Positions 14,194 through 25,383 of a DNA stretch of 64,000 nt are shown piece after piece; the stretch's first letter is position 1, and each line of letters opens with the position of its first letter. Position numbers and translations under genes: made by a program. The DNA is taken from assembly GCA_001650895.1 (NCBI GenBank), contig LXYH01000008.1, positions 24,348-88,347 of the forward strand. Reading direction: 5' to 3'. The stretch comes from Rhodobacteraceae bacterium EhC02. Its GTDB lineage: Bacteria > Pseudomonadota > Alphaproteobacteria > Rhodobacterales > Rhodobacteraceae. The notes beneath the pieces are model-generated. The model was not told where the DNA came from, ran no database searches, and worked only from the letters and a program-made list of their open reading frames with translations.

Positions 14194-15300
14194 TCAGGCC
14201 TCCAAGTGTAACCAGTACCGCGTATGCCGCCGTTCCCCTGTCCGCATGAGCGCGCCCATTTCGACCAAGTCCTGCAGGTCCCGGGTCGTGGTCGCACGCG
14301 ATGTACTGGTGATGGCAATGTAGTTTTCGGCGCTGAGCCCGCCCTTAAACCCATCGGGCCCCTCACGGAACATGCGCTCAATCACCTTGGCCTGCCGGTC
14401 ATTCAGCCGGTCGCGGAACTGGTCGTAAAACTTCGCCTTGGCGATGAAGAAGGCAACCCGTGTCAGCGTAACCTGCTGCGCCGTGAGGACGGTCTCTGCG
14501 AACCAGAGCAGCCAAGCCGTCACATCCAGCGTCTTCTGGTGGGTTTCGAGCTGGTCGTAGTAACCCTTGCGGTCGCGTTCGATCGTGTAAGCCAGTGCGA
14601 TCAGACTCGGCTGGCCGATGTTCTGGGCTAGGGACTTTTCGGCCAGAGCGCGCCCGAGGCGGCCGTTGCCGTCCTCGAACGGATGGATGCTTTCGACCCA
14701 CAGATGCCCAAGCGCCGCGCGCGTCAGCGCGGGCAGTGGCGTGGACCCCTCCGGCGTTGTGTGGTTGAACCAAGTGATGAAGGCGTCCATTTCGTCCGGC
14801 ACTTGTGTCGATGGCGGAGCTTCGAAATGCACCTTTGGCCGGTCGATGCGACCGGACACGATCTGCATCGCGTCGTCATGCTGACGGTAGGCACCTATCG
14901 TCTCGAGGCCACGATCATGGGAGAGGAGCATCCCGTGCCAGCGACAGAGGGTGTCGTGGGAGAGAGGTTCTGCATAGTTCGAATAGACGTCGACCATCAT
15001 CTCAGCGATGCCCTGCTCGCGGGGTTTTGATGGTGCACCCTCTGTGGTCAGTCCGAACTGCCGGCGTAAGGAGGACTGGACACTGGAGCGATCAAGGACT
15101 TCGCCTTCAATGGCGCTTGTGCGCATTGCTTCCTCGCTCAGAAGCTCGATACGCAGCCGGTCGCGCTCTTCGCCTGTCACGTGGCGGACGGCTCCTAGTA
15201 TCTCGCCGGATGATAGAAGAAACCGCCGCTCGAAAGGTTCGACTGCGGCGCTGTCATAGACGAAGTTCGGCCAGTCGGGGTGTGTCCAGTTCCAGCGCAT
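14194..15300 (-). CDS. Fic family protein with N-terminal DUF4172 and C-terminal winged helix
   Basis: A 368-residue protein starting at ATG 15300. The catalytic Fic motif HPFEDGNGRLGR is canonical (about residues 205-216), implying AMP or other NMP transfer from ATP to a hydroxyl side chain. An N-terminal inhibitory motif of the (S/T)xxxE(G/N) type, TSAIEG (61-66), marks a class II self-inhibited Fic. The N-terminus (WTHPDWPNFVYD) is DUF4172, and the C-terminus (YIAITSTSRATTTRDLQDLV then MGALMRTGERRHTRYWL) is a winged helix that could bind DNA. It sits just upstream of the defence-operon promoter, same strand, and has its own paired operators. A toxin/immunity-type role or autoregulation is inferred. 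Confidence 0.92.
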   Translation of the reverse strand: MRWNWTHPDWPNFVYDSAAVEPFERRFLLSSGEILGAVRHVTGEERDRLRIELLSEEAMRTSAIEGEVLDRSSVQSSLRRQFGLTTEGAPSKPREQGIAEMMVDVYSNYAEPLSHDTLCRWHGMLLSHDRGLETIGAYRQHDDAMQIVSGRIDRPKVHFEAPPSTQVPDEMDAFITWFNHTTPEGSTPLPALTRAALGHLWVESIHPFEDGNGRLGRALAEKSLAQNIGQPSLIALAYTIERDRKGYYDQLETHQKTLDVTAWLLWFAETVLTAQQVTLTRVAFFIAKAKFYDQFRDRLNDRQAKVIERMFREGPDGFKGGLSAENYIAITSTSRATTTRDLQDLVEMGALMRTGERRHTRYWLHLEA

Positions 15301-18569: not shown

Positions 18570-19214
18570 TCATGCACGCGTCGTGCGTGGCAGTTTCTGC
18601 TCGTGACCCAGTTCGAAGAGTATGGCGTCGATCTCGGCCCAGACACGGGGCTCAACCTGGCCGCGGATCAGGGCCCATTTGCTCAACACATCGAGTGGAT
18701 CATGAGCGCGGAGCAGGGTGGCCAGTGCTGCGGTATCGACTGCCAACGATGTACGCGCCCGCCATTCAGTGATGCGGCTGCGTGGCTCCTCCGATGGTGC
18801 GACGAAGTGCGGATCGAGCTGCCAATCCTTGACCGCGCGGCGCAGGGCTGCGCGGATGACATGGGCGGGGTCGACGCCGCAGTCGATCAGGGCTTCCTCC
18901 TGCCGTTCCAGCGCGTTCACCCGGATATCGACTTTGCGTGTTGCAGGTAGGCTTCTGGTCTGAGGGCGTTGAGCTGCGGAAGGTGTCGCGATCTCAGACC
19001 CACTTTTGACGCTTGTCTGCTGTGTCAGAAAGGGTGGTGCGCTGTGCTCAGGACCTTGAGTTCTTTCCGCCGTCTCCACTTTCGGGTCCGACGGCTCGAA
19101 AGCTATGACAGCCCGTTCCGACTCCGCCCTTTTCGGGACGTCTTCAAAATCCTGCCGTAGAGACGCCGCATAGGCGGGGTCGGGCCGGGTGACGGTGGGG
19201 ATCTTCTTCCTCAT
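18570..19214 (-). CDS. VirC2-like ribbon-helix-helix protein
   Basis: A 214-residue protein with ATG 19214 lying 10 bp after the VirC1-like stop. The first ~100 residues are low complexity (many Pro, Ser, Glu). The C-terminal half begins RKVDIRVNALERQEEALIDC followed by HVIRAALRRAVKDWQL, the strand-helix-helix pattern of an RHH DNA-binding unit, and ends with LDVLSKWALIRGQVEPRVWA. Position next to a VirC1-type ATPase and opposite a MobC-VirD2-VirD4 set makes VirC2 the best match. VirC2 of Agrobacterium is an RHH protein that with VirC1 enhances T-strand processing through the overdrive site. Identity is by architecture and context, not alignment. It is my first candidate for binding the heptad array at 20016-20365. 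Confidence 0.7.
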   Translation of the reverse strand: MRKKIPTVTRPDPAYAASLRQDFEDVPKRAESERAVIAFEPSDPKVETAERTQGPEHSAPPFLTQQTSVKSGSEIATPSAAQRPQTRSLPATRKVDIRVNALERQEEALIDCGVDPAHVIRAALRRAVKDWQLDPHFVAPSEEPRSRITEWRARTSLAVDTAALATLLRAHDPLDVLSKWALIRGQVEPRVWAEIDAILFELGHEQKLPRTTRA

Positions 19215-19224
19215 GGTGCCGGCC

Positions 19225-19944
19225 TCACTTTTCCAGGATGTTGTTGAGGATGTCGGTCGCCTCCTCAATGGCTTCGACCACATGACGCACATGGGGGCGC
19301 ATGAGCGGGTTCGGATCGGCCTGCTTTTGCAATGCAATGGCGTGCAGGAGGCCCTTTTCGTCCATCTCCTTGTAGGCGTTTCGGCGCAGCATGACGGTCT
19401 CAATCAGGGGAAATCGGGCGACTGCCGCTTGGATGAGGGCTGCATCAGCACGGGTGGTCTTTGGGTCGACCATGTTCAGGACGACATGGTGGCGCGGCAG
19501 ACTGTCGGGGTCATCGACGCGGGATCGGAGCTTCTCGAACCAGTCGGCGGTCTGGGCTCCGACATCGAGGTCTGAGGTGGAAAGCATCACAGGCGTCACG
19601 ATGTGGTCGGCCAGAACGGCAATGCTGTCCGACCATTCCGCACCGACACCGGCGGTGTCGATGAAGACAAAATCCGCCAAGTCTTCCTCATAGACCTGCT
19701 CGATTGTGCGGTCGACGGCGGTCACGCTCTCGGCGGTCGCTGAACGAAGCAGAGGCGAGCCAAGACCGTTCGCGTCCGCCCGCCTGTGCCAAGTGCCGAG
19801 TACCCCAGTGCTGTCGGTATCGATTAGCAACACCCTACGCTTGGCAGCCACGGCAGCACTGATGAGCGCGCGGGAAAGCGTGGTTTTGCCACTTCCCCCT
19901 TTCCGGGCCATCGCGGCGATCACCACAAGATTGTGGTTCGGCAT
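19225..19944 (-). CDS. VirC1-like ParA-family ATPase
   Basis: A 239-residue ATPase. ATG 19944 puts the deviant Walker A KGGSGKTTLSRAL at residues 15-27, as in ParA/MinD proteins; longer frames upstream run into the repeat array and are rejected. FVFIDTAGVGAEWSDS is Walker B/switch II, and PVMLSTSDLDVGAQTADWFE is the following conserved strand. It is smaller than type Ia plasmid ParA (no N-terminal HTH). Its RHH partner is downstream rather than a ParB. In Agrobacterium VirC1 is a ParA-like protein that recruits the relaxosome to the cell pole and binds overdrive. Here I infer relaxosome assembly or segregation of the transferring molecule. Confidence 0.8.
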   Translation of the reverse strand: MPNHNLVVIAAMARKGGSGKTTLSRALISAAVAAKRRVLLIDTDSTGVLGTWHRRADANGLGSPLLRSATAESVTAVDRTIEQVYEEDLADFVFIDTAGVGAEWSDSIAVLADHIVTPVMLSTSDLDVGAQTADWFEKLRSRVDDPDSLPRHHVVLNMVDPKTTRADAALIQAAVARFPLIETVMLRRNAYKEMDEKGLLHAIALQKQADPNPLMRPHVRHVVEAIEEATDILNNILEK

Positions 19945-20015
19945 GAGATACGAGCTTTCTGCAAGAGTAGTGAATAGACGCAAATATATTGAATCGTCGC
20001 TACCCCGTGGAAGCT

Positions 20016-20365
20016 GGCGCGTCAAGCAGAAGACGTGGTGCGCGATGCAAGGAGCGGGTTGCAAGTGCCATGATGCAATTTGCAGCACGCGGAATGAGGG
20101 ATGCACGACACGGGAGACGAAATGCAGGATGCGCGATGCAGGGCCCAAGGAACGCGGGCCATTCACCATCTGCCAAAAGACGGGATGCAGGGAACAGCAA
20201 GCAGAAAACTCGGGACAAGATGCAGAGTGCATTTGCCATTGTCCAAGTGTCAGAAAACAGGATGCAGAAGGCGCAAGACACCCTGCATAGAACGTCATGC
20301 GGGATGCAGAAGGCGCCAGACGTGATGCATTGAGCGCGATGCGCGTTGCCTTTGCCAGAAGACGT
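20016..20365 (+). repeat. Heptad array: about 50 contiguous 7-bp units with invariant C-purine
   Basis: Written in 7-base units from 20016, the sequence reads ggcgCgt, caagCag, aagaCgt, ggtgCgc, gatgCaa and so on to aagaCgt at 20359. Position 5 is C in 49 of 50 units (exception aatgAgg at 20093) and position 6 is A or G in 48 of 50. The most frequent unit is GATGCAG; GATGCA starts at 20044, 20072, 20100, 20135, 20184, 20219, 20261, 20303 and 20324, all separated by multiples of 7. The phase is lost upstream of about 20016 (one more fit at 20002) and ends exactly where the hairpin at 20367 begins. No protein-coding signal explains a 7-bp period. It fills most of the 541-bp gap between the VirC1-like gene and mobC. 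Confidence 0.9.
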
Positions 20366-20366
20366 G

Positions 20367-20389
20367 AAATCGGCCCCGAAGGCCGATTT
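20367..20389. repeat. Hairpin at the end of the heptad array
   Basis: AAATCGGCC (20367-20375) and GGCCGATTT (20381-20389) form a perfect 9-bp stem with loop CCGAA. It resembles a terminator, but both neighbouring genes read away from it, so termination has no obvious purpose. A role in the transfer origin is more likely (inference). Confidence 0.8.
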
Positions 20390-20399
20390 TCTACATTGA

Positions 20400-20452
20400 G
20401 TACAAGCCCTTATGTCCGACTCCGCTTGCGCTGGGAGTCGGTGGGCTTGTAC
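20400..20452. other. Nested inverted repeat, candidate oriT core
   Basis: Outer arms GTACAAGCCC (20400-20409) and GGGCTTGTAC (20443-20452) are perfect 10-bp complements. Inner arms CCGACTCC (20416-20423) and GGAGTCGG (20434-20441) are perfect 8-bp complements around a 10-base loop. The structure ends 33 bp before mobC, where oriT is normally found beside relaxosome genes. I could not identify a VirD2/RP4-type nic sequence, so the nick position is unknown. Confidence 0.6.
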
Positions 20453-20485
20453 GAAGATGGCAAGAAATAGGAACGTTAACTTTAC

Positions 20486-21073
20486 ATGCCTCGTGCCCGT
20501 CGCCTCACCGAGAAGGAACGCCTCAGCATCGCCAAAGCGCATGCTGAGGGTGTCCCTGTGCGCGAGCTGGCGACCCGCTACGGGGTCAGCCGTGTGTCGA
20601 TCTACAACGCGTCCAACCACGGCACCGAGCGGCAGGAGGCCAATGCCAGCCGCTCGCGCGTGATCGGAATCCGGGTCAGCGCCCGCGACCTTCGCGGTTT
20701 TGACGCAGTTCTCGGGCGGAGGGGCATCGCGCATCGCTCAGACGCCATGCGGCGCCTGATGCTTGCCGCCGACAACATCCTGCGTCCCGATGAGGTGATG
20801 GCGGAGGAATTGCGGACGATGAGTGCTGCGCTCAACCGGGTCGGCAACAATGTCAACCAGGTGGCCCGGAGGCTGAACGAGGCCAAGGTTCGGGGTGAGC
20901 TTCCACCCTATACAGCGGCAAGCCATGCCGAGATTCGGGAACTGGCGGGCCTGGTCTTCGACATGGCCGACCAGATCCAGCAACTTTTCCGTGCCCGACG
21001 TCGTGCGCTCGATCTGGACGTGACCAATGCCCTCGCTGGTCTGGCGACAAGAGGTCAGAATGGCGCGGACTGA
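20486..21073 (+). CDS. mobC: MobC-type relaxosome accessory protein (VirD1-like)
   Basis: A 195-residue protein. The N-terminus (LTEKERLSIAKAHAEGVPVR followed by ELATRYGVSRVSIYN) is a resolvase-type helix-turn-helix. IGIRVSARDLRGFDAVLGRR is an RHH-like strand-helix. The C-terminal MobC signature is LNRVGNNVNQVARRLNEAKV. It would bind oriT and help the relaxase nick it. It overlaps the relaxase start by 14 bp, so the two are coupled. An additional N-terminal HTH on a MobC protein is worth noting because it gives two DNA-reading heads next to the heptad array and the nested repeat. Confidence 0.9.
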   Translation: MPRARRLTEKERLSIAKAHAEGVPVRELATRYGVSRVSIYNASNHGTERQEANASRSRVIGIRVSARDLRGFDAVLGRRGIAHRSDAMRRLMLAADNILRPDEVMAEELRTMSAALNRVGNNVNQVARRLNEAKVRGELPPYTAASHAEIRELAGLVFDMADQIQQLFRARRRALDLDVTNALAGLATRGQNGAD

Positions 21074-23414
21074 CGGCGCGCGGGGTGCGGGTCCTGCGCT
21101 TTTCGACCGTGATTGGAGCCGTGTCTCGGGCAGCTGGCAGGGGCTCGCGAAGGGGGCGCAGATGGTGCGGGCCGCGCGCGGACATTCGCCTGCGATCTTC
21201 AAGCCGATTTCCAAGGGTGGTTGCCATACCGGCGCGCAGCTCCGGACGCAGCTCACCTATCTCACCACAAAATCGAGCCACATCCTCGACAGCCGTGGCA
21301 CCCATGACGGCAAGAAGACCCTGACCGAGGCGGAGATCGAGCGCGTGGCACGGCGCTTCGAGAACCAGTGGGGCGAACGGCACAGCCCGAAGCTTGGCCA
21401 TACCTCGCATCTCCTGATGGCATTTCCCGTCGGCACGAAGGGCGAGGAGGTGCGCGACATCACACGAGCCGTCTGCGAGCGGTTGTTTCAAGGTGGGGGG
21501 TCGCATTTCGACTATATTGCTGCAATACACCAAGATCGCGCGCATCCACATGCGCATATCGTTCTGAACCGCCGCAGCAAGGATGGCGAAATGTTCTTTC
21601 TCGGGAAAGACCACCACTTCAACTACGACGCCTTTCGGGTGGCGATGGTCGAGGCGGCCCAAGCCCACGGAATCCGGCTTGAGGCGACACGTCGCCTCGA
21701 CCGCGGCGTCACGACCTACCGCGCCGAGATAGACGAGGTCTACAAGGCCCGTGACGAAGGGCGGCCCCCCGTTGAACGCCAACGCACAGGGGCTGATCTC
21801 GACGCGGCCCTCCGATCGGTGGCCCGCAATGCCCTGATCTACCGTGGCCTTGCCGCCGAGGCCTCACGGTCGAACTTCGACGATGTAGCTGAAGCGCTCG
21901 AGCGAGCCAGCACCATCCTTGCCAGTGGCAATTCAATCCAATCTGATGGAGCCATTTATATGTCCGAAGACGAGACAGCGTTTGATACGCTGATTACTGA
22001 GTTTTCTCAAAACATCCGCCAGATCGAAACGGCGATCGACCGGGCGCCCGCGTCCGAGCGGCCGGAAATCGAGCGCAAGCTCACCGATGTTCTGGCATCG
22101 GTCGCGCATCTTAACCCGCTCGGGGATCGTTCGGCCGCGCTGCTTGATGCGCCCTCACCAGACGGTATCTATGCGCGCGCCAATATGCGCGAAGACCAAC
22201 TCGAACGCCTCGACGAGGGGGATGTGAAGGCACGGCTCACGGAGGCACTGCAGGGCACGGGCATCGATCCCGAGGCCGTCGCCGCCCGCATGCGGGAGGG
22301 TGCCGGCAATGCAGCCCTCGAACGGCAGTGGCTGGCGCAGGATCTGCGCGCCATCGCCAAAGCAGGCGGCCTCGATCTGGAGAAGGGCGAGGACCGCGAG
22401 GAAGCGCTCGACCAGCTGGAAGCCGTTCATATCCGCCTGGGCGATACCCTGACCGATGCGCGCATCCTGCGGGCGGTCGACGATGTCGATGAGGCGGAGG
22501 ATGCCGAGGTCTCGCTGGCCGAGCGTCTGACGCTGCCAGAACGCGATCTGGCTGACGAGCGGCCAGACGTGTTCGCCCCGTCCGAGCGGCAGGACTTCCA
22601 GCAGCTGGTCGCACAGTTCCGCCGGACGGATTTTGACCACCCGTTCTCGGACGACCCTTCCGTGCGCAGGGCGGGTGCTGTCGAGGTCGAAGAGGCGCGC
22701 GCTGCCTTCAACGCCTATGCACAGCGATCGCCCGATCATGCCGAACTAGCCTCGATGGCCTGGGACAAGATCACCGACAGCCGCAAGCCGCAGGAATACG
22801 CCGTCGAGGAGAAAGATCGCATGCTTCATGCCGGCGACATGGATCTTGCGCTGCGCGATCCCTACGACCGCTTGGGCCCAATCACAGAAGAGCTTCGCAC
22901 CGTGGCCCGCTACCGCTCCGAAATGCCGGACGGGGATCTGGAGGCAGCCATCCAGAACGAGATCGGCCAGCTTCGCGCCGAGGGTGCCTCCCGTGCCTAT
23001 ATCAGCGAGCGCAGTCTCGAGATCGAGGATCGGGCGCGACAGGATTATGCCGAACGGCGCTATCTGGCTGAGACGGTGCCAGATGTCGCTGCCTTCCTGC
23101 GCAAGGCCGAGACCGAGGATGCAACGCCGATGTCAGAGGCGGAGCAGCAGCACCTGGTCGCACAGATCGACAAGAGCCTGACCCCTGACGCGGTCGCGGC
23201 GCTACGTGCGGGCAATGCCGAGGTTCTGGACAAGTTCACTGAGCAGCCGCTGCGTCAGCTGGAACTCGCCAAGGCCTACCTCGAGAGCAGTGAGGTGACC
23301 GCCCACGGCCCTGCCATGGAGCGGGTGCTCGACGCCATGGCCGAGGAGCAGATCGAGGCACAGCGCGCGCGCCATGTCGCGGCCCACGGCGAAAAGGGGA
23401 TCACCCATGGATAA
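21060..23414 (+). CDS. virD2: VirD2-type conjugative relaxase
   Basis: A 784-residue protein starting at ATG 21060, preceded by AGAGGTCAG. Motif I with the candidate catalytic Tyr is RTQLTYLTTKSSHI, motif III HQDRAHPHAHIVLNRR supplies the three-His metal site, and FNYDAFRVAMVEAAQAHGI then LEATRRLDRGVTTY follows exactly the order seen in VirD2. Hence MOBP/VirD2 class. It nicks oriT, stays covalently on the 5' end and pilots the strand through the T4SS. The remaining ~550 residues are acidic, helical and unlike VirD2's short tail; they probably hold the secretion signal and protein contacts. Ends in an 8-bp overlap with virD4. Confidence 0.9.
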   Translation: MARTDGARGAGPALFDRDWSRVSGSWQGLAKGAQMVRAARGHSPAIFKPISKGGCHTGAQLRTQLTYLTTKSSHILDSRGTHDGKKTLTEAEIERVARRFENQWGERHSPKLGHTSHLLMAFPVGTKGEEVRDITRAVCERLFQGGGSHFDYIAAIHQDRAHPHAHIVLNRRSKDGEMFFLGKDHHFNYDAFRVAMVEAAQAHGIRLEATRRLDRGVTTYRAEIDEVYKARDEGRPPVERQRTGADLDAALRSVARNALIYRGLAAEASRSNFDDVAEALERASTILASGNSIQSDGAIYMSEDETAFDTLITEFSQNIRQIETAIDRAPASERPEIERKLTDVLASVAHLNPLGDRSAALLDAPSPDGIYARANMREDQLERLDEGDVKARLTEALQGTGIDPEAVAARMREGAGNAALERQWLAQDLRAIAKAGGLDLEKGEDREEALDQLEAVHIRLGDTLTDARILRAVDDVDEAEDAEVSLAERLTLPERDLADERPDVFAPSERQDFQQLVAQFRRTDFDHPFSDDPSVRRAGAVEVEEARAAFNAYAQRSPDHAELASMAWDKITDSRKPQEYAVEEKDRMLHAGDMDLALRDPYDRLGPITEELRTVARYRSEMPDGDLEAAIQNEIGQLRAEGASRAYISERSLEIEDRARQDYAERRYLAETVPDVAAFLRKAETEDATPMSEAEQQHLVAQIDKSLTPDAVAALRAGNAEVLDKFTEQPLRQLELAKAYLESSEVTAHGPAMERVLDAMAEEQIEAQRARHVAAHGEKGITHG

Positions 23415-25383
23415 GGGCAAAATCGCCGGCGGCATCTTTAGCCTGACGCTGGTCGGCCTCGCCATCGGCTATGTCGTCGCGACGGGCTACCTCAGCATTC
23501 GCTATGGGCTGTCGACGGGAGCTTTCGACATCACCTTGCTTGCGCGGGAATACCGCGCGCTTGGTGCCACCGCCCCGAAGGACTTCCTCTGGGTGAACCT
23601 GATCCTGAGCGGCTTCGGCGTCGCAGCTCTGCTGCTCAGCGTCACGCTTCTGGGTGAGGCGTTGACCAAGTTCGGCACCACGCATTGGCAGACCAGGGCG
23701 GAGATGAAGCGCAACGGCTTCTTCGCCAAACCGGGAGGCGGTTTCATTCTCGGCAAGCAGGGCCCCCCGAAATCGAAGCGCCCGTTTCTCGTGTCCAAGA
23801 CTTTTCCCCATGCGTTGATCGTGGCGCCGACGGGCCGAGGCAAGGGCGTGGGGTTCGTGATCCCGAACCTGCTCACCTACAAGGGCTCGGCCGTGGTGCT
23901 CGACGTCAAGGGTGAGAACTTCCGCGAGACCTCGCGCTTCCGCGCCAGCATGGGAGACAAGGTTTTCCGCTTTGCGCCCACCGACTGGGATCGCCCGACG
24001 CATCGCTACAACCCGCTGGCACGGCTCGCGGCCATGACCAACCCAGACCGGCAGCAGATGGAGCTCAAGCTCACTGCCAAGCTCTTTCTGCAGACCGACA
24101 ACGAAAAGCTGAGCGGCCTTCTGGCTGGGGGCATCGATTTGTTCGTGGCGGCGGGTCTTCTGGCCTTCGAGCGCGGCGTGCCCACAATCGGCGAGATCTA
24201 CCGCATCACCGCCTCGGGCGGCGACAAGCAGAAAGAATATCTGAAGCGGGCGCTGGAGGTGAAGAATACCTCGGCCAAGCTGATCTTCGAGCGCATGGCT
24301 TCAACAAACAACGACACGCTGACCTCTTACCTCTCGCTGTTGATGACTTCGGGCCTCGATACCTGGGACAACCGCGCGATCGACGCGGCGACAGCAACCT
24401 CTGATTTCTCCTTCCGCGACATACGCCGGCGTCCGCATTCGATCTATCTGGTGGTCGAGTCCGAGATGATCCGCCCTCTGGCCCCGCTCATCCGGCTCTT
24501 CTTCTCAGACTTGATTGCGTCCTTGCAAGCGCAGGAGCCCGGGGACGATGAGCCATGGCCCGTGATGATCATGCTCGACGAATTCGACCGGCTCGGAAAA
24601 ATGCCAATCGTCGCCGAAAGCATAAAGACGCTGCGCTCGTTCGGCGGCAACCTTGCCATCGTCACCCAGACCATCCCGGCTCTTGATGAAATCTACGGCG
24701 AAAATACCCGCCGATCTCTGCAAGGTGGCGCAGGAGTGAAGCTATATCTCACCCCTTCAGAGCAGAAAACCATTGAGGAACTTAGCCAGGCCGTGGGCAA
24801 GACCACCAAGCGCGTGGTCACCCGCTCGCGTGCCGTCGGGCGCAACCCATTCGAGGGGCGCAGTGTCTCCGAGCGGACCGAAGACACGCCGCTTTTGACC
24901 GAGGATCAGGCCCGGCGCATGGACCTCGATGAGGTAATCCTCGTGATCGACGCGCAGATGCCGATCCGGGCGCGGCGGATCAAGTACTTTGAGGACCCTG
25001 GACTGAAGTCATTGCATGCGGGTCAGGTGGGCAGTTTCCCCTATCCGGACGAGGACCGATTGCGCCGGGATCGGCAGATGTCCGAGACCCGCGAAACTGT
25101 TGAGAAGCTGAAGCTGGAGTTGCGGGAGGTGCGAGCAGAGTATGGTGCGAAGGGCTCTCCACCCCAGACACCCACCGGTGCGCTGGAAGCCCCAGCTGAA
25201 GACGCAGTGAAAGCAGATCCTTTGTCCCGGGCGCGCGGCCGAGCGGCACGCGCGGCTGCCAGCAGGGCTGGCGGCGGCCTGCTGTCGCTCGATCTTGCAG
25301 GGCTGGGGATCAGGGGCGGAGACAAGACTGAATTGATCTCGGCGGTCCAGACCACGCGGGCGATTATCGCAGAGTATGCCTGA
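23407..25383 (+). CDS. virD4: Type IV coupling protein VirD4/TraG
   Basis: A 658-residue inner-membrane ATPase with two N-terminal membrane segments (GIFSLTLVGLAIGYVVATGY and LILSGFGVAALLLSVTLLGE). Walker A is APTGRGKGVGFVIPNLL (about 141) and Walker B is VMIMLDEFDRLGKM (about 388). NLAIVTQTIPALDEIYGENT is the conserved TraG segment. ATG 23407 overlaps the relaxase stop by 8 bp. It hands the relaxase-DNA complex to the VirB channel. The C-terminal ~100 residues are a charged linker and Ala/Gly-rich tail. It is separated from the virB operon by a 6-kb cargo island on this element. Confidence 0.93.
   Translation: MDKGKIAGGIFSLTLVGLAIGYVVATGYLSIRYGLSTGAFDITLLAREYRALGATAPKDFLWVNLILSGFGVAALLLSVTLLGEALTKFGTTHWQTRAEMKRNGFFAKPGGGFILGKQGPPKSKRPFLVSKTFPHALIVAPTGRGKGVGFVIPNLLTYKGSAVVLDVKGENFRETSRFRASMGDKVFRFAPTDWDRPTHRYNPLARLAAMTNPDRQQMELKLTAKLFLQTDNEKLSGLLAGGIDLFVAAGLLAFERGVPTIGEIYRITASGGDKQKEYLKRALEVKNTSAKLIFERMASTNNDTLTSYLSLLMTSGLDTWDNRAIDAATATSDFSFRDIRRRPHSIYLVVESEMIRPLAPLIRLFFSDLIASLQAQEPGDDEPWPVMIMLDEFDRLGKMPIVAESIKTLRSFGGNLAIVTQTIPALDEIYGENTRRSLQGGAGVKLYLTPSEQKTIEELSQAVGKTTKRVVTRSRAVGRNPFEGRSVSERTEDTPLLTEDQARRMDLDEVILVIDAQMPIRARRIKYFEDPGLKSLHAGQVGSFPYPDEDRLRRDRQMSETRETVEKLKLELREVRAEYGAKGSPPQTPTGALEAPAEDAVKADPLSRARGRAARAAASRAGGGLLSLDLAGLGIRGGDKTELISAVQTTRAIIAEYA

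Follow-up and report, generated by a model that had tools for sequence, protein, structure and literature searches.

In the Delta/Omega system of plasmid pSM19035, one ribbon-helix-helix (RHH) ParB dimer binds each heptad and at least four contiguous heptads are needed for ParA activation; its parS sites, which serve partition, hold 7–10 units of consensus WATCACW, and the native arrangement of seven units mixes both orientations (PMC9499535). In Agrobacterium, overdrive is a 24-nt element (PMC5030305) situated to the right of the right border (PMC4285021), and VirC1 is reported to bind it, to raise T-strand production and to bring T-strands to the channel (reviewed in PMC4285021). In R388, the ParA-like StbB and StbA on direct repeats, the stbDRs, balance positioning and transfer; these repeats form two sets of five 9-bp units with 2-bp spacers (PMC3098194). 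The subject of this report is an array of 50 contiguous heptads in a 64,000-nucleotide stretch of Rhodobacteraceae bacterium EhC02 (contig LXYH01000008.1, positions 24,348 to 88,347; hereafter the window), where it lies between a virC1-like gene and mobC. We consider it rather probable that this array is a centromere-like loading platform at a predicted origin of transfer (oriT), coated by the product of the second gene of the virC1 operon (the virC2-like protein) and recruiting VirC1 to the relaxosome; both the identity of this reader and the loading of VirC1 are what we infer.

The locus shares with Delta/Omega a ParA ATPase, an RHH-type partner (here predicted from a structure model) and contiguous non-palindromic 7-bp units beside that gene pair, but its 50 units all face one way, carry other letters (frame NNNNCRN in place of WATCACW), stand beside a predicted transfer origin and would be read by a predicted single-chain tandem RHH protein. 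With Agrobacterium VirC1/VirC2 it has in common the Pfam VirC1 family, a two-gene operon with a predicted RHH-type second protein, a VirD2-like relaxase, VirD4 and a border-like motif. Unlike overdrive, the array measures 350 bp, its second protein has no VirC2 sequence match and, should the candidate nick described below hold, it would lie across the border-like motif, on the first-transferred side. R388 StbA/StbB with the stbDRs is likewise built of a ParA-like ATPase, a DNA-binding partner and direct repeats next to its transfer genes, with ties to positioning and conjugation; the window array departs from it in its period of 7, the absence of spacers, its 50 units and its predicted RHH-type reader. 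We regard the array as a variant of the ParA, direct-repeat and oriT theme to which overdrive, R388 Stb and pSM19035 parS belong.

20016..20365, + strand: heptad array of 50 contiguous direct 7-bp units, frame NNNNCRN, commonest unit GATGCAG (5 of 50)

The sequence-only reading of the window had reported about 350 bp of phased heptads with C in 49 and a purine in 48 of them, and a recount of coordinates and columns gave the same figures: position 5 is C in 49/50 heptads and position 6 is A or G in 48/50. Autocorrelation at lag 7, which that reading had proposed as a check, was well above that of shuffled sequence (identity 0.455 against 0.270 +/- 0.024, the observed value being reached in 0 of 2000 dinucleotide shuffles), and identity at lags 14, 21, 28, 35 and 42 was 0.425–0.490. 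The period-7 column information amounted to 3.63 bits, against 0.27 +/- 0.09 in shuffles (maximum 0.72). When the period-7 score was calculated for 236 tiles across the window, it exceeded 5.2 in three tiles only, each overlapping the array (88.4, 52.0 and 30.0). The claims that every GATGCA stands in one 7-base phase and that this is no simple satellite were also borne out, the first by nine copies out of nine in 19945–20485 and the second since 41 of the 50 heptads are distinct. The array contains GATGC 11 times and never GCATC, its reverse complement; the units are thus all in the same orientation.

A coding sequence was rejected because a period of 7 is no multiple of 3. As regards an RNA element, Rfam gave no match in 19900–20520 at gathering thresholds, and a single-stranded structure in the presumptive transfer strand was dropped as without support (fold z-score 0.01). 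One terminator-like site was found at 20326–20343, where shuffled sequence averages 0.5.

Selection was assessed on 71 arrays of the window's type, each used once per identity band but free to recur across bands. Among 25 disjoint pairs of 90–99.5% identity, the C column held 10 differences in 966 comparisons where 43.7 were expected (P 1.2e-10); the same pairs had 305 differences overall, with 35 to 67 in about 964 comparisons for each other column. In 14 pairs of 85–90% identity the C column differed at 4/558 positions (67.9 expected), and in 20 pairs of 80–85% identity at 16/808 (135.3 expected). Since the differences avoid this column, selection maintains each C and lets the remainder of the unit drift. 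Gap lengths were multiples of 7 in 30 of 76 cases among the 80–85% pairs (P 6e-8), in 1 of 10 at 85–90% and in 1 of 1 at 90–99.5%. Over all 803 pairs at 70–97% the count was 581/3761, near the chance level of 1 in 7, which is ascribed to poor alignment at low identity. Functionless debris of replication slippage, to which the runs of identical units in some arrays (L067, L090) might point, is highly improbable: the C column differs 4- to 17-fold less often than expected, and the period outlives complete letter change in relatives. The array is under selection, not slippage debris.

The operon next to the array consists of the following features.

19225..19944, - strand: virC1-like ParA-family ATPase, 239 amino acids (Pfam VirC1, E 2.7e-22; Walker motif KGGSGKTT in the translation)
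18570..19214, - strand: virC2-like protein, 214 amino acids, second gene of the operon and likely array reader
18573..18953, - strand: predicted tandem RHH domain, residues 88–214 of the virC2-like protein
19158..19214, - strand: basic N-terminal motif MRKKIPTVTRPDPAYAASL of the virC2-like protein, conserved in the alignment

The start of virC1 lies 72 bp from the array. Its product belongs to Pfam VirC1 (79.7 bits against a cut-off of 24) and falls short of the NCBIfam VirC1 equivalog cut-off (79.5 against 313). The second protein gave no Pfam match up to E 1, and a profile search of PDB sequences returned no VirC2 chain up to E 10; its identification as VirC2 by sequence was accordingly dropped. 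Homologues number 565, and the 120 listed all lack a Pfam domain and are hypothetical where named. A structure model, by contrast with the full-length one (predicted local distance difference test, pLDDT, 47.6), which was set aside, gave a single-chain tandem RHH fold with a pLDDT of 91. In the structure comparison of this tandem RHH model the first VIA row was VirC2, and with Foldseek the first row was chain E of 9f0z, from the F-plasmid relaxosome, at an E-value of only 0.093. We take this chain to be TraY, an RHH-type relaxosome accessory, a role that the virC2-like protein would share; we know of no heptad array at the F-plasmid relaxosome. The interpretation of the sequence-only reading holds in part. 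A ParA-like ATPase (by Pfam VirC1) and a predicted RHH protein (by the model) are encoded beside the array, and the name VirC2 finds no sequence match. The virC2-like protein is predicted to be an asymmetric single-chain tandem RHH pseudo-dimer, which fits units that all face the same way. Its N-terminus carries a DPxY-like motif in 39 of 41 proteins (the pattern was drawn up after viewing them), and this basic segment is likely to be the peptide that contacts VirC1.

A scan of relatives, with one genome per species, yielded 62 loci with a VirC1 relative. In 60 of these the array stands directly upstream of virC1, the phased C-R being present in 18 or more of 20 consecutive heptads; other periods (4 to 12) reached at most 14/20 in the same loci. 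At L044 the contig is cut, leaving only 130 bp upstream of virC1. At L024 an array of 52 units lies about 2.6 kb upstream of virC1, with a transposase-like gene (by eye), presumably of IS66 type, in between; this locus is a natural separation of virC1 from its array.

Thirteen further plasmid loci, with VirC1 identities of 31–82%, have the order relaxase, gene at the place of mobC, gap, virC1 and second gene; L071 has the annotation LPD7-domain protein for its relaxase, and several loci have other annotations at the position of mobC. The period is 7 in ten of them, 8/4 in L071 and 4 in L073, and L075 is irregular, with lags of 7, 15 and 22. An order-wide sample of 292 genomes gave 62 matches at 1e-8, the weaker of which are probably generic ParA. 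Period 7 was found in 24 of the 28 loci examined from this search, period 8 in L105 and L108, 12/4 in L106 and none in L102; L083 was left out, its contig ending too near. These three sets (62 from the scan, 13 from plasmids, 28 from genomes) partly overlap. Class-wide, three of 385 genomes matched at 1e-12, the window's genome included. The sole match beyond the family is L120, where an array of period 8 (score 25.8) stands some 380 bp upstream of virC1 and is followed by TGGCAGGATATAT, which to our eye looks like the start of a T-DNA border.

The letters of the array vary by lineage (gCr; TGTcgcg; TGTtcC; tCgtGtt;.at..C.; tGCgGt; atcCGtc; Cg..at;.t..gAT). Conservation of the period in related elements, named as a check by the sequence-only reading, was seen across relatives as a 7-bp step that even distant ones mostly keep while the letters drift. 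Steps of 4, 8 or 12 bp occupy the same gap in L071, L073, L105, L106, L108 and L120, and L075 mixes 7 and 8. Of seven loci that lack a clean 7-bp step and are placed on the virC2-like tree or near it, five belong to two starred groups (L071, L073 and L106 with L102; L075 with L105). The tree omits L108 and L120; in L108 a stop interrupts the virC1 frame, and the open reading frame (ORF) chosen was internal to virC1. An altered step may be the consequence of an altered reader protein. A broader proposal, more speculative than the loading platform and to our minds short of an even chance, is that such arrays are transfer centromeres on the oriT side, in which single-chain tandem RHH proteins would set the step (7 bp, with 8 or 4 in side branches) and the lineage-specific letter code would act as a private address, restricting VirC1 loading to the plasmid of that lineage. 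Arrays that have exchanged their letters but retained the step form a natural data set on the reading of DNA by tandem RHH proteins.

The array goes with virC1 and the second gene rather than with mobC. Period 7 was absent at all seven of the mobC loci L076, L077 and L110–L114, in the available stretches of which tblastn found neither virC1 nor the second gene; L076 and L111–L114 look like one clade, so that the independent controls number about three. L115, which has both genes, also has the array. From these controls we conclude that the array accompanies the virC1 operon. L109, on a Pukyongiella plasmid, retains the oriT-like hairpin and mobC with a shortened array at about 2293–2369 (11 units score); a Tn3-family transposase gene is annotated nearby, and tblastn over its 5.6 kb detected no virC1 and no second gene.

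These loci bear on the question of the reader. MobC has an N-terminal helix-turn-helix (HTH_23) that could bind the units, and VirC1 itself has been reported to bind overdrive in Agrobacterium (review PMC4285021). We think it unlikely that either reads the array, given that the seven mobC loci without virC1 (about three of them independent) have no array and that ParA-type ATPases generally lack sequence specificity.

With the virC2-like protein as reader, one tandem RHH molecule would sit on each heptad, and the units would face one way because the reader itself is asymmetric. Seven base pairs are two thirds of a helical turn, so the proteins would wind round nearly straight DNA and return to the same face every 21 bp, or three units. 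Their basic N-termini, displayed some fifty times, could then concentrate and switch VirC1-ATP, which in turn would take the relaxosome to the coupling protein of the type IV secretion system (T4SS). This scheme is modelled on pSM19035 for the coat and the heptad per dimer, and on Agrobacterium VirC1 and R388 for the role in export. With the array in front of virC1, autoregulation may come along. Yet that the array is an operator only, a set of many weak sites repressing virC1-virC2 and perhaps mobC, seems improbable, although such repression is compatible with the loading platform. The array takes up the greater part of the interval separating two divergent transcription units, and omega heptads overlap promoters (PMC9499535), but fifty units seem far beyond the needs of an operator and no sigma-70-like promoter was found in 19930–20500, a scan that is a weak test in this bacterial group.

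Beyond the array, towards and past mobC, the transfer region holds the following features.

20367..20389, no strand: inverted repeat AAATCGGCC...GGCCGATTT at the mobC end of the array, seen in the sequence, right arm largely conserved
20400..20452, no strand: inverted repeat GTACAAGCCC...GGGCTTGTAC, candidate oriT hairpin, conserved in 16 aligned loci
20458..20468, + strand: TGGCAAGAAAT, candidate nick region just before mobC, matching GGCARGAAAT
20486..21073, + strand: mobC (Pfam MobC, HTH_23)
21027..23414, + strand: relaxase, MobA/VirD2-like (Pfam Relaxase, E 1.7e-13; ORF start as listed, true start may be downstream)
23374..25383, + strand: virD4-like coupling protein (Pfam T4SS-DNA_transf, E 1.8e-81)

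The segment 20400–20468, with its conserved hairpin and nick-like motif, is a candidate oriT. The inner stem of the hairpin covaries among the 16 loci (GACTCC/GGGAGTC versus TTCTCC/GGGAGAA), with one pair broken in L047. GGCARGAAAT, allowing at most one mismatch, occurs in the stretch scanned at 99 of 105 loci against 5 of 105 shuffled stretches; it is absent from that stretch in L024, L035, L044, L073, L105 and L108. We take the motif to resemble the start of a T-DNA border. Judged by this likeness of TGGCAAGAAAT, nicking would occur on the complementary strand, and the recipient would receive the array, virC1 and virC2 before the rest.

The element in the window is likely to be a plasmid. 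The array might be mainly a segregation centromere, with VirC1 and the virC2-like protein as a ParA/ParB pair for plasmid upkeep and the nearness of oriT incidental or regulatory. A ParA-like ATPase, an RHH protein and contiguous heptads are indeed the partition anatomy of pSM19035 (PMC9499535), and in R388 StbA acts in plasmid stability from direct repeats close to oriT (PMC3098194). However, the same contig encodes a RepABC-type RepB (G000:C8:2649-3485; 202.5 bits against a cut-off of 201.5), which makes a pure partition centromere less likely, and a relaxase-type gene together with a small gene at mobC's place was found across the gap in 14 of 14 annotated virC1 loci read. We rate this explanation as unlikely, if the least so of the alternatives to the loading platform.

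The open-licence literature, among the matches listed, contained no description of heptad arrays at oriT or VirC1; most subscription papers fall outside that scope. With about fifty selected, phased sites by a predicted oriT and a putative reader in the same operon, the step in which a VirC1-like ATPase locates the DNA for T4SS export becomes testable. The action of the NAH7 partition proteins at the oriT region (PMC12421886) is a further sign that the theme is an active one. Transfer of a Dinoroseobacter plasmid has been reported in a paper that uses neither of the words oriT and VirC1 (PMC4886583).

Elsewhere in the window, at 14194–15300 on the - strand, an ORF of 368 amino acids contains HPFEDGNGR, presumably the Fic-domain signature.
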